Source: Elioraea thermophila (ex Habib et al. 2022)
Lineage (GTDB): Bacteria > Pseudomonadota > Alphaproteobacteria > Acetobacterales > Acetobacteraceae
Length of the DNA stretch: 64,000 bases
Direction of reading: 5' to 3'
Assembly (NCBI RefSeq): GCF_003336755.1
Contig: NZ_QMDI01000013.1
Span: 62,001 to 126,000, forward strand
The notes beneath the pieces were generated by a model that saw only the letters and a program-made list of their open reading frames with translations, was not told the origin of the DNA and made no database searches. Shown here piece after piece: positions 17,529 to 54,880 of this stretch. Position numbers and translations under genes: made by a program. Numbering within the stretch: position 1 is the stretch's first letter; each line of letters starts with the position of its first letter.

Positions 17529-18857
17529 TCAGCCTCCGCCGACGGCGCGGACCAGGCCAAGCGACAGCGACGGCAGCGCGACGCAGAGCGCGAGCTTCAG
17601 CGCATCCGCAGCCAGGAACGGCAACACGCCGGCGAAGATCCGCGGCAGCGCCACGTCGCGCGCGATGCCACCGGCCACGAACACGTTCAGACCCACGGGC
17701 GGCGAAATCAGCCCCATGCCGACCACGATCAGCACCAGCACACCGAACCAGATCGCGACCTCATCCCGCGTCAGCCCGAAGTCGAGCGCAACAACGAGCG
17801 GAAAGAACACCGGCAGCGTGAGCAGGATCATCGCCAGCTCGTCCATCACCGCGCCGAGCAGGATGTAGAGGGCAAGGATCGCGACCAGCACGGCAACGGG
17901 CGAAACGTCGAGCCCCTCCAGCCAGAACTGCAGCACGTCCGGCGCCTGGGTGAGCGCGAGGAATGCGTTGAACACGTTGGCGCCGAGCAGGATGGCGAAG
18001 ATCATCCCCGAGGTCTCGGCGGTGGCGCGCAAGGCTTCGGCCAAGCCCCAGAGCCCGAAGCCGCGCCGTGCGAGGGCCACCAGCAGGACCGCGACCGCGC
18101 CGACGGACGCGCCTTCGGTCGGCGTAAACACGCCGCCGTAGATGCCGCCCAGGACGATGACGCCGACCCCGAGCACGGGCAGAACGCGGCGCAGGGCCGC
18201 GCGGTCCCCCCTGCCCTCGCCCTCTCCCGCGAGTTCCGGCCGCAGCCGCACCGTCAGCGAAACCGCGAGAGCGTAGAGAAGCACCGCGAGCAGGCCGGGC
18301 AGGAGCGCGGCGAGGAAGAGGCGGGCGATGTTCTGTTCCGTGACGATCGCGTAGATGACGAGGATTACCGACGGCGGAATCAGGATGCCCAGGGTTCCGC
18401 CCGCCGAAACGAGGCCGGTGGCGAAGCCCGGCGCGTAGCCGAGACGGCGCAGTTCCGGCAGCGCGGCGCGCGCGAAGGTCGCCGTGGTGGCGACGGAAGA
18501 GCCGCAGACGGCACCGAAGGCCCCGCAGGCGACGATGACCGCGATCGCCGGCCCGCCGCGCCTACGCCCGAACAGGGATTCGGCGGCAGCGAACAGATCA
18601 CCGGCGAGACCTGCCCGCTCGGCGATCGCGCCCATCAGGACGAAGAGGGGGATGACGGAGAGGGTGTAGTTAGCGAACAGGTGGTACGGCGTGCCCTTGA
18701 GGTAATTGAGCAGGATCGGCCAGCCCGCGATCTGCGCGTAGCCCACACCGCCGACGAGCAGCATGGCGAGCGCGATCGGACAGCGCAGCACGATCAAGAC
18801 CAGGAGGGCGGCGAAGCCCTCGAGCGCGGCCAGGATCTCAGGCGGCACGCCGGTCAA
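17529..18857 (-). CDS. dctM: TRAP transporter large permease (DctM family)
   Basis: A 442-residue polytopic protein with about 12 hydrophobic segments and TRAP-M hallmarks: PLFVLMGAIAERAGLAGDLF, CGSSVATTATFARAALPEL, GTLGILIPPSVILVIYAIV, GVFTPTEGASVGAV and LISPPVGLNVFV. It imports an organic acid with the Na+ or H+ gradient. I place the start at TTG 18857, whose last bases overlap the dctQ stop (TTGA); GTG 18848 is an alternative. A longer open frame upstream is only dctQ read out of frame. It is the last gene of the pob/pca unit, so an aromatic acid substrate is inferred. Confidence 0.92.
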   Translation of the reverse strand: MTGVPPEILAALEGFAALLVLIVLRCPIALAMLLVGGVGYAQIAGWPILLNYLKGTPYHLFANYTLSVIPLFVLMGAIAERAGLAGDLFAAAESLFGRRRGGPAIAVIVACGAFGAVCGSSVATTATFARAALPELRRLGYAPGFATGLVSAGGTLGILIPPSVILVIYAIVTEQNIARLFLAALLPGLLAVLLYALAVSLTVRLRPELAGEGEGRGDRAALRRVLPVLGVGVIVLGGIYGGVFTPTEGASVGAVAVLLVALARRGFGLWGLAEALRATAETSGMIFAILLGANVFNAFLALTQAPDVLQFWLEGLDVSPVAVLVAILALYILLGAVMDELAMILLTLPVFFPLVVALDFGLTRDEVAIWFGVLVLIVVGMGLISPPVGLNVFVAGGIARDVALPRIFAGVLPFLAADALKLALCVALPSLSLGLVRAVGGG

Positions 18858-19357
18858 TGGCGGGGATCGTGCGAAGCGACGAAGGGGCGGACGAGGGCGG
18901 CAAGACCCGCCAGCGCGAAGGCGGCCGAGCCGATGCCGGCCACCCACCAGGTCGACATGCCGAGCGCCATCGTCACCGTGCCGGTGCGATGGAGTTCGGT
19001 GGCCGTGACGAACAGGCGCTCGGCGAGCAGGAAGCACACGCCAGCCCAGACCAGCAGCCACACCGTGTCGATCGCGCGCTGCAGCCGTTCGGGAAGCCAG
19101 ACGGTGAAGCTCGTCACCGCGACATTGGCGCCGCGCGAGGCGGCGAAGGCGAAGGCGACGAAGAGCGCGATGGCGGAAGCGAGCGAGACGAGTTCGAAGT
19201 CGCCGCGGATGGCGCGGCCATCGAGCCAGCGACGGAGCACGCTTGCGCAAGTGAGCAATGCGGCGGCGACCAGGACGACCCCGCCCGCCACCGCGACATG
19301 GCGCGCGACCAAGCCGGGCAGGCTTGCTGCACCGGGCGTCCGCACTCCCTTGCGCAC
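18854..19357 (-). CDS. dctQ: TRAP transporter small permease (DctQ family)
   Basis: A 167-residue protein with four hydrophobic segments (residues about 20-40, 60-80, 98-115, 135-155) and the DctQ-type pattern RGANVAVTSFTVWLPERLQRAID between segments 2 and 3. It joins the large permease and assists the binding-protein-dependent uptake cycle. It starts 45 bases after the dctP stop and overlaps dctM. Confidence 0.88.
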   Translation of the reverse strand: MRKGVRTPGAASLPGLVARHVAVAGGVVLVAAALLTCASVLRRWLDGRAIRGDFELVSLASAIALFVAFAFAASRGANVAVTSFTVWLPERLQRAIDTVWLLVWAGVCFLLAERLFVTATELHRTGTVTMALGMSTWWVAGIGSAAFALAGLAALVRPFVASHDPRH

Positions 19358-19402: not shown

Positions 19403-20461
19403 TCACGCCCGCCCGCGGCCGATCTCGCTGATCAGCGCGCGCGCCTCCTCGAGCAGCGCCCCGCCGTCGATGTTGCGCTCGCGCATCGCGCGCACCCAGG
19501 CGTCGATCACCGGCTCGGTCGCGCGCTGCCAACGGAGGCGCTCCTCCTCGGTGATGCTGACGATCTCGTTGCCGCGCCGGCGCACCTGTTCCACCACCAC
19601 GGGACCCTGCTCGTCCCACACCTTGGAGGCCATCTCGGCCGCGGCCTCGCCGGAGTTGCGATCCAGCACCGCGCGCAGGTCGGCGGGCAGGGAGTCGTAG
19701 CGCGCACGGTTCATCGCCAGCACGAAGGTGGCGATGTAGAGCGTGGGGCTGCCCGGAATTTCGGTGTGGTGGCGAACCATCTCGTGCAGACGAATGGCGG
19801 GCACCACCTCCCACGGCACCACCGCGCCGTCGATCACGCCTTGGGAGAGGGCTTCGGGCACCTGCGGGATCGGCATGCCGACCGGGGAGGCGCCGAGCGC
19901 GCGCAGGGCCTCGCCCGCCTGGCGGGTCGGAAAGCGCAGCTTGAGGCCCCGCAGATCCTCCATCGTGCGCACCGGCTTGCGCGCGTGGATCACGCCATGG
20001 TCGTGGCCCCAGGCGCACAGGATGTGGGTGTCGGCGAACTCCTCGCGCAGGCGGCGTTCGAAGAAGCGCTGCACGGCGAGCGCGTTCACGTAGGACTGGC
20101 GGTGCGGCACGAAGGGCAGTTCGAACACCTCGATGCGCGGGAAGCGCCCGGGCGTGTTGCCGGGCAGGGTCCAGACGATGTCCACCACCCCGTCGCGCGC
20201 CTGGTCGTAGAGCTGCGGCGGGGCCCCGCCCAGTTGCATGGCGGGGAAGATCTGCACGCGCAGACGCCCGCCGCTCTCGGCCTGGATCTTCTGCGCCCAG
20301 GGGACGAGGAAGTTGCGGTGCACGTTGCTGACGGGGCCGAGGAAGTGATGCAGCCGCAGCGTGACTTCCTGGGCGCGCGCAGCGGTGGGGCGCAGGAGCG
20401 CCGGTGCGGCCAGGGCACCGGCAATCAGTCCGCGCCGTGCAAGGCCCACGCCTTTCGTCAT
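19403..20461 (-). CDS. dctP: TRAP transporter substrate-binding protein (DctP family)
   Basis: A 352-residue periplasmic receptor. The N-terminus MTKGVGLARRGLIAGALAAP ending TAARA-QE is a cleavable signal with a twin-Arg flavour. The mature protein begins VTLRLHHFLGPVSNVHRNF. The typical helix MEDLRGLKLRFPTRQAG contains the conserved Arg that grips the substrate carboxylate, and VIDGAVVPWEVVPAIRLHEMV is also family-like. By position downstream of pcaD, the ligand is probably 4-hydroxybenzoate, protocatechuate or a related acid; sequence alone does not prove this. It lies 69 bases after the pcaD stop. Confidence 0.9.
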   Translation of the reverse strand: MTKGVGLARRGLIAGALAAPALLRPTAARAQEVTLRLHHFLGPVSNVHRNFLVPWAQKIQAESGGRLRVQIFPAMQLGGAPPQLYDQARDGVVDIVWTLPGNTPGRFPRIEVFELPFVPHRQSYVNALAVQRFFERRLREEFADTHILCAWGHDHGVIHARKPVRTMEDLRGLKLRFPTRQAGEALRALGASPVGMPIPQVPEALSQGVIDGAVVPWEVVPAIRLHEMVRHHTEIPGSPTLYIATFVLAMNRARYDSLPADLRAVLDRNSGEAAAEMASKVWDEQGPVVVEQVRRRGNEIVSITEEERLRWQRATEPVIDAWVRAMRERNIDGGALLEEARALISEIGRGRA

Positions 20462-20530: not shown

Positions 20531-21310
20531 TCAGGCGCGCATGCCCCCTTCCTCCATCCAAGTGAGCAGGCTCGCCACCGGCGCGTCCCGCTCGATCGGC
20601 ACGAGGTGGGCAGCGCGGCGCAGCAGCATGAAGTCGGCACCGAGATCGGCCGCCAGCGCCTCGCCCAGCGCCGGTGGCGTCGCCGGATCCTCGGACGCCG
20701 AGACGACCAGCGTCGGCACATGGCGCGGCGGACGCGTGCCGCGCAGGTCGAAGCGGCCGATGGCGCGGCAACAGGCGGCGTAGCTGGCGGGATCGACGCG
20801 CAGGAACGCCTCGCGCACCTCTGCCACGCGTTCGGGCTCGCGCGCGGCGAAGCCGGGCGTGAACCAGCGCCCCATCACGGCATCCACGATCGCGCCGAGC
20901 CCGTCGCGCTCCACCACGCGTGCCCTCTCCTCCCACGTCTCGGGCGAGGGGATGTGCGCAGCGGTGGCGATCAGCACCACCGCGATCAGACGCTCGGGCG
21001 CGCGCCGCAGCAGCAGTTGGCCGATGAGGCCACCGATGGACAAACCGACGAAAAAGGCTCGCCCTCCGTTCTCCGCGATCAGTTCCGCCACGCGGTCTGC
21101 GATCGCCTCGAGGGTCAGCCCGGGCGCCGGCGGAGATGCGCCGTGCCCCGGCTTGTCGAAGCGAAGGCAGCGGAACCGCATGGAAGCCCGGCCGATCACC
21201 TCCCGCCACATGTGCAGGTCGGCGCCGAGGGAGTTGGCGAAGACGGCCAGCGGCGCATCGTCCGGTCCGTCCAGACGGTGATGGAGAACGAGCGACGTGT
21301 CGGTGGTCAT
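20531..21310 (-). CDS. pcaD: 3-oxoadipate enol-lactonase PcaD
   Basis: A 259-residue alpha/beta hydrolase that opens beta-ketoadipate enol-lactone to beta-ketoadipate. Visible marks are FANSLGADLHMWREV (oxyanion region), RFDKPGHGAS, the nucleophile elbow FFVGLSIGGLIGQ with Ser, an Asp in VVSASEDPATPP and a His in RRAAHLVPIERD. It starts at ATG 21310, overlapping the pcaB stop by ATGA. It is the plain hydrolase and not the PcaL fusion; there is no carboxymuconolactone decarboxylase domain. Confidence 0.9.
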   Translation of the reverse strand: MTTDTSLVLHHRLDGPDDAPLAVFANSLGADLHMWREVIGRASMRFRCLRFDKPGHGASPPAPGLTLEAIADRVAELIAENGGRAFFVGLSIGGLIGQLLLRRAPERLIAVVLIATAAHIPSPETWEERARVVERDGLGAIVDAVMGRWFTPGFAAREPERVAEVREAFLRVDPASYAACCRAIGRFDLRGTRPPRHVPTLVVSASEDPATPPALGEALAADLGADFMLLRRAAHLVPIERDAPVASLLTWMEEGGMRA

Positions 21311-22668
21311 TCCTCCCTCCCCTCCCCCGCGACTCGGCGCAACGCCGAGGCGACATCCCTCACCCGGCGCGCCGCCGCGATTGCGCTGCGGGCACCCGCT
21401 GCCGATGCCGCGTCCGGCGTGCAGGCCTCCGCCGCCTCGGCATGGCCGGCCGCGCGCAGGGCGTCTTCGAGCGTGCCGGCCGCGCCCGAGCGTACCATGT
21501 CCGCCGCCCGCGCCACCGCCTCCGCCGCCCTCTTGCGCCCGAGCCGAGGGGCGAGCGCCTCCGCCGCCCGGTCGGCGAAGACGAGGCCGCGAGCGGCAGC
21601 GAGGTTGGCACGCATACGCTCCCCGTCGGGCTCTCCTGCGGCGGCGAGCCGGGCGAGCTCGGCACTCGCGCGCGCCGCAAGCGAAAACAAGGCCGGCAGG
21701 GCCTGCCACTCCGCCTGCCAACCGCCGCCGCCGCGCTCCTCCGCCACGGCCGTCGCCGCGATCAGGGCGGAGGCGAGACCGGGCGCGAGATGATGAGCGG
21801 CCAGGATTGCGCTCTCGCCGGCAGGGTTGCGCTTGTGCGGCATCGCCGAGGAGCCGCCGCGGCCCTCGCCGGTGCGCACGATCACCTCGCCGACGGCATC
21901 GGAACGAAGCTCGGCGAGGTCGCGCGCGATCTTTGCCGCCGTGCCGATGAGGCCAGCGAGCCAAGTGCCCGTGCGCGCGATGCGCCAGCGCCGCGCGTGC
22001 CAGGCAAGCGGCTCGGCAGCGAGGCCGAGGAGAGCGGCGAACCGGGCGGTCAGGTCGGGCGCGGCGTCGCCGTAGGCCGCGGCGATGCCGACCGGCCCGC
22101 CGAGCGACACCGCGGTCACAAGGCGGAGCAGCTCGGGCAGCTCCGACGCCGGCTCGGCAAGCCCCGCCGCCCACTGCCCGACACGGGCGCCGAAGGTGAT
22201 CGGCGCTGCCGCCTGGCCGTAGGTGCGCCCGAGACAGAGGAGATGGGCGTAGCGTTCCGCCAGCGCAGCGAAACCGTCGAGCGCGGCAGAAAGGTCTTCG
22301 GCAAGCAGGCGGAACGATCGGCGGATCAGCAGCGAGAGAGCGGTGTCGAGCAGATCCTGGCTGGTGGCGCCGCGATGCAGAGCCCAGGCGAGATCCGACG
22401 GCAGTCGGGCCTCGAGTTGGGCGAGGAAGGCGATGGTCGGCACGGCGGAGCGCCGTGCACCCTCGGCGATGGCGGCGAGATCGAACGCCTCCGCCGGCAC
22501 GGCCCGGATCGCATCGGCGAGCCCCATCGGGGCGAGGCCGAACGCGGCCTGCGCCTCCGCCAGCGCTGCCTCCACCTCGAGCATGGCAGCGAGAAGCGAG
22601 CGATCTGACCAGATCGCCGCCATCCGCGGCTCGACGACGACGGCGTTGAGGAGGGAGTCCCCGATCAC
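21307..22668 (-). CDS. pcaB: 3-carboxy-cis,cis-muconate cycloisomerase PcaB
   Basis: A 453-residue member of the fumarase/argininosuccinate lyase superfamily. It carries the signature GSSAMPHKRNPAGES (about residue 265), LHRGATSQDLLDTALSLL and GRTYGQAAAPITFG. It lactonises 3-carboxymuconate, the product of PcaGH. I choose GTG 22668 because it gives the normal length and starts VIGDSLLNAVVVEPRMAAIW; the frame is open for 31 more codons inside the preceding gene. Stop overlaps pcaD. Confidence 0.92.
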   Translation of the reverse strand: MIGDSLLNAVVVEPRMAAIWSDRSLLAAMLEVEAALAEAQAAFGLAPMGLADAIRAVPAEAFDLAAIAEGARRSAVPTIAFLAQLEARLPSDLAWALHRGATSQDLLDTALSLLIRRSFRLLAEDLSAALDGFAALAERYAHLLCLGRTYGQAAAPITFGARVGQWAAGLAEPASELPELLRLVTAVSLGGPVGIAAAYGDAAPDLTARFAALLGLAAEPLAWHARRWRIARTGTWLAGLIGTAAKIARDLAELRSDAVGEVIVRTGEGRGGSSAMPHKRNPAGESAILAAHHLAPGLASALIAATAVAEERGGGGWQAEWQALPALFSLAARASAELARLAAAGEPDGERMRANLAAARGLVFADRAAEALAPRLGRKRAAEAVARAADMVRSGAAGTLEDALRAAGHAEAAEACTPDAASAAGARSAIAAARRVRDVASALRRVAGEGREE

Positions 22669-22690
22669 GCGCGGCAGAGGGCTCTGCGGC

Positions 22691-23536
22691 TCAGGCGACC
22701 GGCGCGGCTGGCAGGCGAAGGATGGCCCGCGCCTCGGCCACCGTCGCCGGCCGCCGGCCATATTCGCCGCAGAGCGCGACCACGCGGCGCACCAGAGCGG
22801 CGTTGGAGGGTGCGAGCGTCTCGCGATCGAGCCGGACGTTGTCCTCGAGCCCCGTCCGGCAGTGCCCGCCGAGCTCGAGCGACCAGCGGTTCAGCACGAT
22901 CTGGTTGCGCCCGATCCCCGCGCCGGTCCAGGTGGCGTCGGGAGCGAGCCGCGCCAGCGTGCGGACGAGGAACTCGAAGGTCTCGCGGTCCGCCGGCAGC
23001 GCGTTCTTCACCCCCATGACGAACTGCACGTGCAGCGGCCGAACGATCTTGCCTGCCTCCGCCATCGCCACCGCGTTGAACAGCATGGCGAGGTCGAACA
23101 CCTCGATCTCGGGCTTGACGCCGTATCGCAGCATCTCGGCGGCGAGCCAGTCGATCAGCTCGGGGTCGTTCTCGTACACGCGCGTGGGGAAGTTGCAGGA
23201 GCCCGTCGCCAGCGAGCACATGTCGGGGCGGAGGGGGATCATGCCGCCGCGCTCGCGCCCCGTCCCGGAGCGCCCGCCGGTGGAGAGCTGGATGATCATG
23301 CCCGGGCAGTGCTTGCGGATCCCCTCCATCAGCCGCGCAAAGCGCTCGGGGTCCGAGGTCGGGCGGCCCTGATCGTCGCGCACATGGGCGTGCACCAGCG
23401 TCGCACCCGCCTCGAACGCCTCGTGGGTGGACTCGATCTGCTCGGCGATCGAGATCGGCACCGCGGGATTGTCGGATTTCTGCGGCAGCGACCCGGTGAT
23501 CGCCACCGTGATGATGCAAGGTGTCGCTTCTGCCAT
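22691..23536 (-). CDS. Beta-keto acid cleavage enzyme (BKACE, DUF849 family)
   Basis: A 281-residue TIM-barrel enzyme of the 3-keto-5-aminohexanoate cleavage family. The metal-binding HAHVRDDQG near residue 50, IIQLSTGGRSG, EIEVFDLAML and the C-terminal GGHCRTGLEDNV are intact. The family condenses a beta-keto acid with acetyl-CoA to give acetoacetate and a new acyl-CoA; members acting on beta-ketoadipate would yield succinyl-CoA. Placed between pcaG and pcaB, it probably replaces the CoA transferase and thiolase (PcaIJ, PcaF), which are absent. That role is inference; the fold and chemistry are well supported. The gene is 42 bases after pcaG and 22 before pcaB. Confidence 0.88.
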   Translation of the reverse strand: MAEATPCIITVAITGSLPQKSDNPAVPISIAEQIESTHEAFEAGATLVHAHVRDDQGRPTSDPERFARLMEGIRKHCPGMIIQLSTGGRSGTGRERGGMIPLRPDMCSLATGSCNFPTRVYENDPELIDWLAAEMLRYGVKPEIEVFDLAMLFNAVAMAEAGKIVRPLHVQFVMGVKNALPADRETFEFLVRTLARLAPDATWTGAGIGRNQIVLNRWSLELGGHCRTGLEDNVRLDRETLAPSNAALVRRVVALCGEYGRRPATVAEARAILRLPAAPVA

Positions 23537-23578
23537 CGGCGCCTTTCTTGTCGCGTTTCCGACCGCTCGGCCTCGCGC

Positions 23579-24145
23579 TCAGAGGTCGAAGAACACCGTC
23601 TCGTTCTCGCCCTGCAGCCGGATGTCGAAGCGGTAGCGTCCGGGGGCGAGCTTGTCTGCGAGGAGGGTTGCGCGTCGCGCGGGCGGCACGGCGAGCAAGA
23701 TCGGATCGCGCGCGTTCCGTTCCGCCTCGTCCGCGAAATGGACGCGGGTCACCAGCGGGCCGAGCAAGCCCCGCGCCTGCACGATCAGCCAGAGATGCGG
23801 CGCCTCGTCGCCGGCGGCAACGCCGGGACGAACGGTGCGGAAGCGGAAACACCCATCCCTGTCCGTCGCCGCCCGGCCGTAGCCGCGGAAGCCTCGTCCC
23901 GGCTCCCAGCCACCGCGGGCATCGCGTTGGCGCGCCTCGATCAGGGCGTCGGAGACGGGGGCGCCATCGCCGTCGAGCACCCGGCCCATGAGCACCAGGG
24001 GTTCGCCTTCGGCCTCGTCGGTCGCGATCTCCTCCGTGGCGAGGGGAAGGAAGGGCAGGCCGATGCGGTGCGGCGCCAGCCCGATCGCGAAATAGGGGCC
24101 GACCGTCTGCGTCGGCGTCTGCCCGAGCCGGTTGGCGCGCGCCAT
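23579..24145 (-). CDS. pcaG: Protocatechuate 3,4-dioxygenase alpha subunit PcaG
   Basis: A 188-residue intradiol dioxygenase subunit. The N-terminus LGQTPTQTVGPYFAIGL is diagnostic for PcaG, followed by PLVLMGRVLDGDGAPVSDALIE and the C-terminal RYRFDIRLQGENETVFFDL. The alpha subunit shapes the active site, while iron is held by PcaH. ATG at 24145 overlaps the pcaH stop (ATGA), so the two subunits are translationally coupled in equal amounts. Confidence 0.95.
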   Translation of the reverse strand: MARANRLGQTPTQTVGPYFAIGLAPHRIGLPFLPLATEEIATDEAEGEPLVLMGRVLDGDGAPVSDALIEARQRDARGGWEPGRGFRGYGRAATDRDGCFRFRTVRPGVAAGDEAPHLWLIVQARGLLGPLVTRVHFADEAERNARDPILLAVPPARRATLLADKLAPGRYRFDIRLQGENETVFFDL

Positions 24146-24876
24146 CACGTGGTCTCCCACGGGGTGGCGGCCGGCCCGCGCAGGACGAAGTCGAAGGCGA
24201 AGCCGAGGGCGTAGCCCTCGACGGTGAGGCTGAGATCGAACCGCGCGATCAGCCGTTCGCGGGCATGCTCCGGCACGCTGCGGAAGATCGGGTCGAAGGC
24301 AAGCAGCGGGTCGCCCGGAAAATACATCTGGGTGACGAGACGGTCGGCGAAATGCCGCCCGAACAGGGCGAAATGCAGATGCGCCGGCCGCCAGGCGTTG
24401 GGGTGGTTGCGCCACGGATAGGCCCCCGGCCGGATGGTGACGAAACGGTAGCGCCCCTCGGCATCGGTCCGGCAGCGACCCACGCCGAGGAAGTTGGGAT
24501 CGAGCGGCGCGTCATGATCGTCCACCGGGTGGCGGTAGCGGCCCGCCGCGTTCGCCTGCCAGAGCTCGACGATGGTGTCCGCAACCGCGCGCCCCTCCTC
24601 GTCGAGCACGCGCCCCGCGACGATGATGCGCTCGCCCACCGGCTCGCCATTGATGCGGCCGTTGCGCGTCAGATCGGCATCGATCTCGGTGACCACGACG
24701 TCGGAAAGATCCGGTGCCGGCACGAGCGCGGCGAGCGGAGGAACCGCAACGAGCGGCTCGCGCGGGCCGCGCCGCGCCGTCGAGCGGTATCCGGGGTCGA
24801 TCCAGGCCGGATTGGCGGCGCGATCGCGCGGAGCAAGCGGGGGGAGGCCGGCGTCAGTCGAGCGGGAGTCCGACAT
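24145..24876 (-). CDS. pcaH: Protocatechuate 3,4-dioxygenase beta subunit PcaH
   Basis: A 243-residue catalytic subunit. Fe(III) ligands expected from the family are visible: Tyr in NAAGRYRHP, Tyr in RPGAYPWRN, and the two His in RPAHLHFALFG. The N-terminal DPGYRSTARRGPREPLV matches the family. It cleaves protocatechuate between its hydroxyl-bearing carbons to 3-carboxy-cis,cis-muconate. Its start lies 23 bases inside the pobA 3' end, another tight coupling. Confidence 0.95.
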   Translation of the reverse strand: MSDSRSTDAGLPPLAPRDRAANPAWIDPGYRSTARRGPREPLVAVPPLAALVPAPDLSDVVVTEIDADLTRNGRINGEPVGERIIVAGRVLDEEGRAVADTIVELWQANAAGRYRHPVDDHDAPLDPNFLGVGRCRTDAEGRYRFVTIRPGAYPWRNHPNAWRPAHLHFALFGRHFADRLVTQMYFPGDPLLAFDPIFRSVPEHARERLIARFDLSLTVEGYALGFAFDFVLRGPAATPWETT

Positions 24877-26026
24877 AGTTCTCGGCGATCACGGTGCGGG
24901 CGGCGCGCGAGGCGGCGACGTAGGCGCGTTCCGCCTCCTGCATCTTCGCCTCGAACGGCGCGAGGTCAGGGAAGCTGTGCATGAGCCGCGTCATCATCCA
25001 CGAGAAGCGCTCGGTTCGCCAGACCCGCGCCAGCGCTATGGCCGAGTACGCGTCGAGCGCGGTCTCGTCGCCCTCGCGCAGGAAGCGGATGGCGGCACGC
25101 GCGGCGTACCAGGCATCGGCGGCGGCGAGATTGAGGCCCTTCGCCCCCGTCGGCGGCACGACGTGCGCCGCATCGCCGAGCAAAAGGAGGCGGCCCACGC
25201 GCATCGGTTCGGCGACGAAACTTCGCAACGGCGCGATCGAACGCTCGATCGCCGGCCCTGCCGTGACGCGCGCCGCGATCTCGGCCGGCAAGCGACGGCG
25301 AAGCTCGGCCCAGAACCGCTCCTCGGTCCAGTCCTCGAGACGCTCACCGGCGGCGACCTGGACGTAGTAGCGGCTTCGCGTGGGCGAGCGCAGGGAACAG
25401 AGGGCGAAGCCCCGGTCGGAAGCGGCGTAGACGAGCTCCCCGTGCGCCGGAGGGACGTCGGCCAGCAGGCCGAGCCAGCCGAACGGATAGGCGATCTCGT
25501 AGGTCCTGATCGCCTCGGCCGGCAGGGCCCGCCGAGCGAGGCCATGGAAGCCGTCGCAGCCCAGCACGAGGCGGCAGGAGAGGACGATCGTCTCGCCCGC
25601 GCGGCGACAGACGACGCGGGGCGCCGCATCCAGGTTCTCGATCGCCACCGCCTCCGTCTCGAACAGGAGCGGCAGACCGGCCGCCTCCCGATGCGCGATC
25701 AAGTCACGCACCACCTCCGTCTGCCCGTACACGGTCACATGACGGCCGGGGACGAGATCGGGGAAGGCGATCCGCACCATCGTCTCGCCGAAGGCAAGCA
25801 CGAAGCCCTCGTGCACGAGGCCCTCGCGGTCGAGACGCGCCGCGGCGCCAAGCCGGCGCAGGGTCTCGACGGTCGACTGCTCGAGCACGCCGGCCCGCAC
25901 GCGCTGCAGCACGTAATCGCGCGCGCGGTGTTCGACGATGATGGTCTCGATTCCGGCTTCGGCGAGCAGGGCTGCCGATATGAGCCCCGCCGGCCCGGCG
26001 CCGATGATGCAGACGTCGGTTCGCAC
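24854..26026 (-). CDS. pobA: 4-hydroxybenzoate 3-monooxygenase PobA
   Basis: A 390-residue FAD monooxygenase making protocatechuate from 4-hydroxybenzoate with NAD(P)H and oxygen. It has the dinucleotide motif IIGAGPAGLISAALLAEAGI at the N-terminus, the RVRAGVLEQSTVETL substrate region, DG in LGCDGFHGLAR, and the FAD motif GDAAHVVPPTGAKGLNLA. GTG 26026 behind CAGGGGAC gives the normal length (P. fluorescens PobA is 394); the upstream open frame runs through tRNA-Glu and is not coding. It is the first gene of the catabolic operon. Confidence 0.95.
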   Translation of the reverse strand: MRTDVCIIGAGPAGLISAALLAEAGIETIIVEHRARDYVLQRVRAGVLEQSTVETLRRLGAAARLDREGLVHEGFVLAFGETMVRIAFPDLVPGRHVTVYGQTEVVRDLIAHREAAGLPLLFETEAVAIENLDAAPRVVCRRAGETIVLSCRLVLGCDGFHGLARRALPAEAIRTYEIAYPFGWLGLLADVPPAHGELVYAASDRGFALCSLRSPTRSRYYVQVAAGERLEDWTEERFWAELRRRLPAEIAARVTAGPAIERSIAPLRSFVAEPMRVGRLLLLGDAAHVVPPTGAKGLNLAAADAWYAARAAIRFLREGDETALDAYSAIALARVWRTERFSWMMTRLMHSFPDLAPFEAKMQEAERAYVAASRAARTVIAENYVGLPLD

Positions 26027-26090: not shown

Positions 26091-26126
26091 AGAGCCGCCA
26101 GGAGGGCCGGCCGGTCGTCCTGAGGT

Positions 26127-26202
26127 GGCGTCCCGTACGGGATTCGAACCCGTGTTGCGGCCTTGAAAGGGCCGAGTCCTAGGCCTCTAGACGAACGGGA
26201 CG
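26127..26202 (-). tRNA. tRNA-Glu(TTC), CCA encoded
   Basis: Read on the minus strand, the acceptor GTCCCGT (26202-26196) pairs with ACGGGAC (26137-26131), followed by G and an encoded CCA ending at 26127. The anticodon loop CTTTCAA gives TTC, reading GAA and GAG. D arm and T arm (CGGGTTCGAATCCCG) are normal. It sits 49 bases after the recJ stop on the same strand. Confidence 0.97.
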
Positions 26203-32814: not shown

Positions 32815-34611
32815 ATGGCAGAGGACAAGGCCGCCCAGGCCTTCAAGATGCCCGACCCCGCCCTGCTGACGCGCAACATGGCGGACATCGCGCGCCGTAG
32901 CCAGCGCATCGTGATGGAGTTCCTCAAGCGCCAGGGCAACGGGACTTTGCCGGGATTCGATCCGCTCAACATCGGCGGCGCCTTCCTGGAAATGACCGCC
33001 CGGCTGATGGCCAACCCGGTGGCGCTGATGCAGGCGCAGGTCGCGTTCTGGCAGGACTACATGCTGCTGTGGCAGAACACGGCGCGCCGGCTGCTCGGCG
33101 CCGAAGCCGAGCCCGTCGTCACGCCGCCGCCCGGCGACCGTCGCTTCCGCCACGAGGACTGGCACGAGAACGAGATCTTCGACTTCATCAAGCAGTCCTA
33201 CCTCCTCTCCGCCCGCTACATCCAGTCGCTGGTGAAGCAAGTGGAGGGGCTGGACGAGAAGACGGCGCAGAAAATCGACTTCTACACGCGCCAGTTCGTC
33301 GATGCGATGGCCCCGACCAATTTCGTCCTGACCAACCCGGAGGTTTTGCGCCGCACGATCGAGACGGGCGGGGAAAATCTGGTGCGCGGCCTCAACAACC
33401 TGCTCGCCGACCTCGAACGCGGCAAGGGCCGGCTGCAGATCAAGATGACCGATTACGAGGCGTTCAAGGTGGGCGAGAACATCGCCACCACGCCCGGTTC
33501 GGTGATCTACCGCAACGACCTGATCGAGCTCATCCAGTACGCCCCCGCCACGGAGGAGGTCCTCAAGCGCCCCCTCCTCATCATCCCGCCCTGGATCAAC
33601 AAGTACTACATCCTCGACCTGCGGCCGAAGAACAGCTTCATCCGCTGGGCGGTCTCGCAAGGCCACACGGTGTTCTGCATTTCCTGGGTGAACCCGGACG
33701 AGCGGCTCGCGCAGAAGACCTTCGAGGACTACATGCTGGAAGGGCCGCTCGCCGCGCTGGAGGCCATCCGCAAGGCGACCGGCGAGACGGACGTCAACGC
33801 CATCGGCTATTGCCTGGGCGGCACGCTGCTCGCCTGCACGCTCGCGCACATGGCGGCGAAGGAGGATGCGCGAATCCGCTCCGCCACCTTTTTCACCACG
33901 CTGGTCGATTTCTCGGAAGCGGGCGAACTCTTGGTGTTCATCGACGAGGAGCAGCTGAAGGCGCTCGAGGAGACGATGAACAAGCGCGGCTATCTCGACG
34001 GGCACGAGATGGCGGTGACCTTCAACATGCTGCGCGCCAACGACCTGATCTGGTCGTTCGTGGTGAACAACTATCTGCTCGGGCAGGAGCCGTTCCCGTT
34101 CGACCTGCTCTATTGGAATTCCGACTCGACCCGCATGCCGGCGGCGATGCATTCGTTCTACCTGCGCAAGATGTACCAGGAGAACAAGCTGGTCGAACCG
34201 GGCGGCATCACGCTTGCCGGCACGCCGATCGACCTGCGCAGGATCGCCGTGCCGACCTACATCCTGGCCACGCGCGAGGACCACATCGCGCCGTGGAAGG
34301 CCTGTTACAAGGCGACACAGATCTATTCCGGCAAGAAGCGCTTCGTGCTCGCCGCCTCGGGCCACATCGCCGGCGTGGTCAATCCGCCAGAGGCCGGCAA
34401 GTACAGCCACTGGGTGAACACGGACTTGCCGCCCGACCCTGAAGCCTGGCTCGCTGGCGCGACCGAACTCGCCGGCTCCTGGTGGCCGGATTGGCAGCGT
34501 TGGGTGGCCGGGTTGTCGCGCGCCAAGGTGAAGGCGCGCACGCCCGGTGAGGGCGAACTGCCGGTACTGGAACCCGCGCCCGGCAGTTACGTGCGCGTCA
34601 CCGCACAGTAG
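32815..34611 (+). CDS. phaC: Class I poly(3-hydroxyalkanoate) synthase PhaC
   Basis: A 598-residue polymerase that builds polyhydroxybutyrate from (R)-3-hydroxyacyl-CoA on granules. The catalytic triad is visible: Cys333 in the lipase-like box IGYCLGGTLL, Asp489 in REDHIAPWKACY, and His517 in SGHIAGVVNPP. The N-terminal helical domain contains GGAFLEMTARLMANP-like sequence and FWQDYMLLWQ. Length is typical of class I enzymes, which act without PhaE. The phasin gene lies 20 kb away on the same strand; phaA and phaB are not in the window. Confidence 0.97.
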   Translation: MAEDKAAQAFKMPDPALLTRNMADIARRSQRIVMEFLKRQGNGTLPGFDPLNIGGAFLEMTARLMANPVALMQAQVAFWQDYMLLWQNTARRLLGAEAEPVVTPPPGDRRFRHEDWHENEIFDFIKQSYLLSARYIQSLVKQVEGLDEKTAQKIDFYTRQFVDAMAPTNFVLTNPEVLRRTIETGGENLVRGLNNLLADLERGKGRLQIKMTDYEAFKVGENIATTPGSVIYRNDLIELIQYAPATEEVLKRPLLIIPPWINKYYILDLRPKNSFIRWAVSQGHTVFCISWVNPDERLAQKTFEDYMLEGPLAALEAIRKATGETDVNAIGYCLGGTLLACTLAHMAAKEDARIRSATFFTTLVDFSEAGELLVFIDEEQLKALEETMNKRGYLDGHEMAVTFNMLRANDLIWSFVVNNYLLGQEPFPFDLLYWNSDSTRMPAAMHSFYLRKMYQENKLVEPGGITLAGTPIDLRRIAVPTYILATREDHIAPWKACYKATQIYSGKKRFVLAASGHIAGVVNPPEAGKYSHWVNTDLPPDPEAWLAGATELAGSWWPDWQRWVAGLSRAKVKARTPGEGELPVLEPAPGSYVRVTAQ

Positions 34612-54448: not shown

Positions 54449-54880
54449 ATGACCAAGAAGCCAGAGAGCCTGTTCGACATGGACTTCACCAAGATCATGG
54501 CCGAGTTCAAGCTGCCTCAGGTCGACGTCGAAGCCCTGGTCGCCGCCCAGCGCAAGAACATCGAGAGCCTGTCCACCGCGAACCGCCTCGCCCTTGAGGG
54601 CATGCAGGCAGTGGCCAAGCGCAACATGGAGATCATGCAGGCGACACTCGCCGACCTGACGGAGGCGATGAAGGCGCTCGCCGCCGCCGAGGCCCCGCAG
54701 GCGAAGGCCGCCAAGCAGGCCGAGCTGATGAAGCAGACCTACGAGAAGGCCATGCAGCACATCCGTGAGCTGCAGGACATGATCCAGAAGATGTCCGGCG
54801 AGGCGATGAACGTGTTGAACAAGCGCATCGCCGAAGCACTCGACGAGGTGAAGGCGATGATGGAGAAGGCGAAGGCCTGA
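54449..54880 (+). CDS. Phasin family protein
   Basis: A 143-residue, nearly all-helical amphipathic protein (phasin_2 / TIGR01841 type) that coats polyhydroxyalkanoate granules. Marks are FDMDFTKIMAEFKLPQVDVE, RKNIESLSTANRLALEGMQ and a Lys/Met-rich helical C-terminus. It is rich in Lys, Met and Gln and has no Cys or Trp, unlike its neighbours. ATG is preceded by GAGGAG. With PhaC it indicates PHB storage. A strong hairpin follows. Confidence 0.93.
   Translation: MTKKPESLFDMDFTKIMAEFKLPQVDVEALVAAQRKNIESLSTANRLALEGMQAVAKRNMEIMQATLADLTEAMKALAAAEAPQAKAAKQAELMKQTYEKAMQHIRELQDMIQKMSGEAMNVLNKRIAEALDEVKAMMEKAKA

Follow-up and report, generated by a model that had tools for sequence, protein, structure and literature searches.

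A beta-ketoadipate pathway that ends with a beta-keto acid cleavage enzyme (BKACE) was proposed previously for Methylobacterium and Ralstonia, as judged from the accessible portions of the sources cited here and below. In Methylobacterium, a DUF849 gene is located between pcaG and pcaB in a cluster without pcaIJF, and beta-ketoadipate was suggested as its substrate (PMC8963497, 2022); transfer of the pcaHG-kce-pcaB-pcaL cluster of M. nodulans together with vanABK into M. extorquens led to growth on protocatechuate (PMC12379598, 2025). For Ralstonia, beta-ketoadipate was suggested as the substrate of a BKACE-family protein whose homologues often lie near protocatechuate dioxygenase genes, and a COG3246 gene of R. 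eutropha H16 is reported to be co-regulated with catBCD of the catechol branch (PMC6449761). Beta-ketoadipate is also tabulated among BKACE substrates, from the Bastard 2014 study (PMC4922564). Here the analysis was extended to a 64,000-nucleotide stretch of the Elioraea thermophila genome (contig NZ_QMDI01000013.1, positions 62,001 to 126,000; hereafter the window), where a BKACE gene is embedded among pca genes. The locus is probably a nine-gene operon for the breakdown of 4-hydroxybenzoate, or of an aromatic acid related to it, in which the BKACE carries out the last step, with the CO2-releasing step most likely supplied in trans by a member of CMD2, a clade of the carboxymuconolactone decarboxylase (CMD) family. 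The BKACE ending is already known; the missing pcaC is the less expected part.

Six genes in the order pobA-pcaH-pcaG-BKACE-pcaB-pcaD occupy the minus strand and are followed on the same strand, 69 bases after pcaD, by the tripartite ATP-independent periplasmic (TRAP) transporter genes dctPQM. An earlier annotation of the window made from its letters alone (the sequence-only reading) had described the six genes as coupled by overlaps and short gaps, in agreement with the coordinates and NCBIfam scores obtained here; the TRAP genes lie beyond the region it covered. In window coordinates, the nine genes are as follows.

24854..26026, minus strand: pobA, 4-hydroxybenzoate 3-monooxygenase, first operon gene (GTG start; TIGR02360 549 bits, cut-off 539)
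24145..24876, minus strand: pcaH, protocatechuate 3,4-dioxygenase beta subunit (TIGR02422 311 bits, cut-off 296)
23579..24145, minus strand: pcaG, protocatechuate 3,4-dioxygenase alpha subunit (TIGR02423 185 bits, cut-off 126)
22691..23536, minus strand: BKACE, predicted 3-oxoadipate:acetyl-CoA acetyltransferase (NF053568 492 bits, cut-off 350; PF05853 320 bits)
21307..22668, minus strand: pcaB, 3-carboxy-cis,cis-muconate cycloisomerase, diverged (GTG start; TIGR02426 272 bits, below the cut-off of 356)
20531..21310, minus strand: pcaD, 3-oxoadipate enol-lactonase (244 bits against NF051488, N-terminal part; 234 bits against TIGR02427, below the cut-off of 256)
19403..20461, minus strand: dctP, TRAP transporter substrate-binding protein (PF03480 168 bits)
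18854..19357, minus strand: dctQ, TRAP transporter small permease (PF04290 56 bits)
17529..18848, minus strand: dctM, TRAP transporter large permease (PF06808 281 bits; start as given by the gene caller)

The pobA and pcaH genes overlap by 23 bases, the pcaH stop and pcaG start have one base in common (TGATG), gaps of 42 and 22 bases separate pcaG from the BKACE gene and the latter from pcaB, and pcaB and pcaD overlap by 4 bases. A promoter scan returned 0 sites and a terminator scan 2, not above the level in shuffled sequences. PobA, PcaH, PcaG and BKACE exceed their NCBIfam equivalog cut-offs. PcaB and PcaD do not reach those set for them, but no other equivalog matches either protein. The closest solved relatives are 1q5n and 1re5 for PcaB and 2xua for PcaD, a protein of 259 aa with no PcaC domain. 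The host genome is a 3.03 Mb draft in 11 contigs, 98.7% complete. The nine-gene order is identical in all Elioraea genomes that carry pcaH (four of the seven examined, three of these four being 81–88% complete), indicating that the operon is more than a chance arrangement. BKACE and dctP are its best-conserved genes, at 96–97% identity to the other three Elioraea genomes (dctP 96% identical and in the same position), and PcaB (77–83%) and PcaD (79–80%) are among the least conserved.

The operon has in common with the Methylobacterium cluster a BKACE/DUF849 gene between pcaG and pcaB, the lack of pcaIJF and the predicted products succinyl-CoA and acetoacetate. It differs by including pobA and the TRAP transporter genes, and by encoding PcaD alone, with no PcaC, where the Methylobacterium cluster has pcaL, which we take to be a PcaD-PcaC fusion. 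The R. eutropha gene is tied to the catechol branch, whereas the Elioraea BKACE belongs to the protocatechuate branch. Compared with the canonical pcaHGBCDIJF pathway, PcaH, PcaG, PcaB and PcaD are shared and PcaC and PcaIJF are lacking. No BKACE operon without PcaC was found among the matches listed for the open-licence literature, and no deletion of a pca-linked BKACE gene in the portions of the literature examined.

From this gene content a pathway can be proposed in which an aromatic acid would be imported by DctPQM and hydroxylated by PobA, after which PcaHG would cleave the ring and PcaB would form the lactone. Loss of CO2 would be brought about by a factor outside the operon, most likely the unlinked CMD2 protein encoded at G000:C6:504341-504703 (G000 being the host genome and C6 one of its contigs), and PcaD would hydrolyse the resulting enol-lactone to beta-ketoadipate. 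BKACE would then convert beta-ketoadipate and acetyl-CoA into succinyl-CoA and acetoacetate. The acetoacetate would be activated by an acetoacetyl-CoA synthetase or an unlinked CoA-transferase pair and split by a PhaA-type thiolase; alternatively, it would be reduced and stored as polyhydroxybutyrate (PHB).

The assignment of the BKACE to beta-ketoadipate, as put forward by the sequence-only reading, was strengthened by family scores, residue comparison and gene neighbourhood. The protein scores 492 bits against NF053568 (3-oxoadipate:acetyl-CoA acetyltransferase; the short name of the family suggests a Cupriavidus protein), which exceeds the cut-off by 142 bits, and its nearest solved relative is 3no5 (457 bits). 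It belongs to the same Pfam family as Kce, and H49, H51, R227, E231 and D232 align with their counterparts in Kce 2y7d; the roles of these five residues are assumed here, H49, H51 and E231 presumably being the His, His and Glu metal ligands of BKACEs. Unlike members of the Kce family, it reaches only 272 bits against that family's cut-off of 382, and has L17 where Kce has E and R89 where Kce has A. K20 and R89 do not vary between the window protein and its 80 relatives; the corresponding positions are P and A in the second BKACE of the genome, and neither residue is shared with Kce. One of them, R89 or K20, may bind the distal carboxylate of the substrate. The locus comparison offers both as residues to mutate. 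The second BKACE (L018:7190-8110, on contig C5) was rejected as the pathway enzyme, as it falls in another curated family, NF053538, where it matches the 3,5-dioxohexanoate:acetyl-CoA acetone transferase at 551 bits (cut-off 430). It adjoins a gene of the 3-hydroxyacyl-CoA dehydrogenase family (L018:6210-7178).

In a scan of bacterial genomes at least 594 BKACE relatives were retrieved, and the best 80 loci were analysed with profiles built here. No flank was longer than 8 kb and several loci were shortened, so that absences in these loci are upper bounds. In 21 of the best 80 loci, all from other bacteria, pcaG was present near the BKACE gene; these 21 contained PcaC in 14 cases, a thiolase in 3 (18 having no thiolase match) and a weak CoA-transferase match in 2 (19 having none). 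The link between BKACE and pca genes was seen in Alpha-, Beta- and Gammaproteobacteria. Within the Acetobacteraceae, 28 of 200 genomes had a BKACE above the cut-off, at 29 places, with PcaG in the same stretch at 13, another pca gene above 200 bits at 7 and neither at 9. Some of the 80 loci, including L173, L180, L205 and L229, showed a PcaD-like lactonase near BKACE with no pcaG in the stretch, as expected if BKACE also ends the catechol branch. At three loci (L107, G053:C14; L108, G088:C1; L109, G183:C24) BKACE was matched as two adjacent pieces, which are the product of decay or sequencing error; in L107 and L108 the split gene adjoins pca genes. A search of plasmids gave 83 records with a BKACE match.

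The absence of pcaC or a PcaL fusion from the run, also described by the sequence-only reading, was found in all four Elioraea operons, and the 13–18 kb stretches fetched with the operon from the other three genomes contained no PcaC. When the search was widened to the whole host genome, as that reading had advised, two CMD-family matches were obtained, one AhpD-like and one PcaC-like, the latter being the gene on contig C6. In a tree of CMD proteins (matches below 100 bits excluded; near-copies L111 and L123 removed, L111 having re-entered from another table), this gene fell in the separate clade CMD2, which comprises 59 rows with support of 100/92 based on few columns and has a small group of four PcaC rows as its sister. 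The PAAN motif of PcaC is replaced in CMD2 by PAGL, PASL or similar, its final N occurring in 52 of 53 PcaC rows versus 1 of 59 CMD2 rows. Although it is the best PcaC match of the host genome, the C6 gene was rejected as a true pcaC because it scores below the cut-off, lies in a separate clade, lacks PAAN and is kept in three Elioraea genomes without pcaH. It appears to be the likeliest stand-in for PcaC without being a member of that family.

Support for CMD2 as the decarboxylase came from its distribution in the Acetobacteraceae. A full-length PcaDC fusion was present in 53 of 200 genomes above the fusion cut-off and in 2 more below it. Among the genomes without such a fusion, a strong PcaC-family match (E <=1e-30) occurred in 57 of 59 with pcaG versus 17 of 86 without, in a hand tally uncorrected for kinship and genome size. 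In 42 of the 57 the match was read, giving 40 CMD2 and 2 PAAN-type proteins (G187 and G168), with 15 unread; all 9 read among the 17 genomes without pcaG were CMD2. This contrast, together with the predominance of CMD2 among the matches read, favours CMD2 as the enzyme for the CO2 step. Several of the above observations weigh against it, namely the uncorrected tally, the unread matches, the score of the C6 gene against TIGR02425 (139 bits, cut-off 155.7) and its PASL motif. To these are added the presence of CMD2 in six of seven Elioraea genomes, among them the three that lack pcaH (two at 100% completeness, G202 at 75%), and the failure to find it in G197, an operon-bearing Elioraea genome that is 88% complete. 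Taken together, whether CMD2 performs the CO2-loss step appears about evenly balanced.

Clusters without pcaC occur in other Acetobacteraceae genera too. PcaH, PcaG, PcaB and an unfused PcaD were clustered in G092, G151, G194, G027, G065, G093 and G114 (the last on a short contig), and in these seven genomes, of which G093 is 79% and G114 87% complete, every PcaC-family match listed at E <=1e-10 was CMD2. Loss of PcaC as a consequence of BKACE was ruled out, since G065, G093 and G114 have pcaD-pcaHG clusters without fused PcaC and no BKACE above the cut-off. A further 20 Acetobacteraceae pcaHG loci have little bearing on the PcaC question because 15 of them had no PcaB in the stretch. The occurrence of several genera without a linked PcaC raises the testable question of what decarboxylates gamma-carboxymuconolactone there. 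Among the matches listed for open-licence literature on the absence of pcaC, nothing concerned BKACE except PMC8963497.

In three genomes, CMD2 is followed by another gene (G000, G200 and G201; L014:7605-9728, L121 and L122). This gene, to which NCBIfam assigned no family, presumably encodes an AtuA/DUF1446 protein, and the loci of G097, G154 and G202 (L110, L111 and L124) yielded no homologue.

An explanation that we consider somewhat unlikely is that there is no dedicated decarboxylase, gamma-carboxymuconolactone losing CO2 spontaneously or a diverged PcaB releasing the decarboxylated enol-lactone. This would concern only the CO2 step and is compatible with a BKACE ending. In line with it, the Elioraea PcaB scores below the PcaB cut-off and is placed on a long stem of 1.21 changes per column (in a tree excluding PcaB matches below 230 bits and L161, which is on the same contig as L142), and G197 has the operon with no CMD2 found. 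The solved relatives of this PcaB also include, at 172 bits, the trans-aconitate decarboxylase Tad1, a PcaB-like protein reported as a decarboxylase (PMC4720413). However, true PcaB proteins (210 and 200 bits) and the lyase CreD (190 bits) are closer to it than Tad1 is, and in other bacteria PcaC is kept in 14 of the 21 loci where pcaG lies beside BKACE. Furthermore, G041 encodes a near relative of this PcaB and, at a different place in the genome, a full-length PcaDC fusion, so that the type of PcaB alone is no sign of PcaC loss. A single PcaB clade as the cause of PcaC loss was ruled out, as genomes without a PAAN-type PcaC fell in two parts of the tree, with G041 as an exception. For the rate of uncatalysed CO2 loss from gamma-carboxymuconolactone, no text was found among the matches listed for the open-licence literature. 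The broader version, in which the protocatechuate branch of these Acetobacteraceae operates without any PcaC, with PcaB (or PcaB plus uncatalysed CO2 loss) supplying the enol-lactone to PcaD and BKACE finishing, appears improbable; if true, it would constitute a four-enzyme route from protocatechuate to succinyl-CoA and acetoacetate.

It also seems unlikely that beta-ketoadipate is processed by a classical ending made up of unlinked genes, with BKACE working alongside it or using a different beta-keto acid. The sequence-only reading had stated that the last two steps have no genes, and this holds for the operon, which contains no PcaI, PcaJ or PcaF gene; it does not extend to the genome, where a 3-oxoacid CoA-transferase pair on contig C2 scores 343 and 283 bits against the pcaI/scoA and pcaJ/scoB subfamilies, above both cut-offs. 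The pair is 67–69% identical to the CoA-transferase pairs of G102 and G159 and could be PcaIJ, a point that counts against an ending by BKACE. In these two genomes, which are of another genus, the CoA-transferase genes form one run with BKACE, a thiolase, pcaB and a PcaDC fusion (L081:8544-14545 and L082). The thiolase of G102 is PcaF (694 bits, cut-off 597). As the run holds both endings, BKACE does not always replace pcaIJF, and the view of BKACE as a strict pcaIJF replacement was ruled out, to the detriment of our proposal. On the other side, the neighbours of the C2 pair in Elioraea are acyl-CoA ligase- and SCP2-thiolase-like genes and not pca genes, and the single PhaA-like thiolase, on contig C7, scores far under the PcaF cut-off (401 versus 597 bits). 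No PcaF equivalog was found among the three Thiolase_C (PF02803) matches of the genome, the other two being SCP2-type, although no direct PcaF search was made. The classical ending is further disfavoured by the location of BKACE inside the operon in all four Elioraea genomes with pcaH and by its rank, with dctP, as the best-conserved gene.

That a true pcaC is present and was missed by the assemblies is very improbable: the genomes are drafts and, of the four that carry the operon, three are incomplete, but the nearly complete host genome yielded just two CMD-family matches and the flanks fetched from the other three yielded no PcaC.

Under the proposed BKACE ending, the acetoacetate formed has to be handled in turn. 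The classical ending converts beta-ketoadipate and CoA into succinate and acetyl-CoA in net terms. The net result is identical when BKACE is followed by a succinyl-CoA-dependent transferase and a thiolase, and becomes succinyl-CoA and acetyl-CoA, with ATP spent to AMP, when BKACE is followed by a synthetase and a thiolase. The sequence-only reading had proposed a pathway shorter by one enzyme that saves a CoA transferase; BKACE would indeed replace transferase and thiolase at the beta-ketoadipate step, but there is no net saving because acetoacetate needs its own activation and thiolase. The saving would be real only if acetoacetate were used as such, reduced or stored. The genome encodes an acetoacetyl-CoA synthetase (876 bits, cut-off 521) and an acetoacetyl-CoA reductase, phaB (353 bits, cut-off 302), and these, with the pcaIJ/scoAB-type pair, the thiolase and phaC, could process acetoacetate. 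The requirement of the BKACE route for an acetoacetate-handling module is relevant to lignin-to-product engineering.

Formation of PHB from acetoacetate through PhaC, another suggestion of the sequence-only reading, is possible on gene content, but nothing was found that links PHB to the operon. The polyhydroxyalkanoate (PHA) synthase gene and the tRNA gene next to the operon are located as follows.

32815..34611, plus strand: phaC, class I PHA synthase, outside the operon (TIGR01838 810 bits, cut-off 623)
26126..26201, minus strand: tRNA-Glu(ttc), directly upstream of the operon (ARAGORN)

A phasin is also encoded in the window at 54449-54880 (67 bits, cut-off 30), and both it and the PHA synthase gene lie away from the operon.

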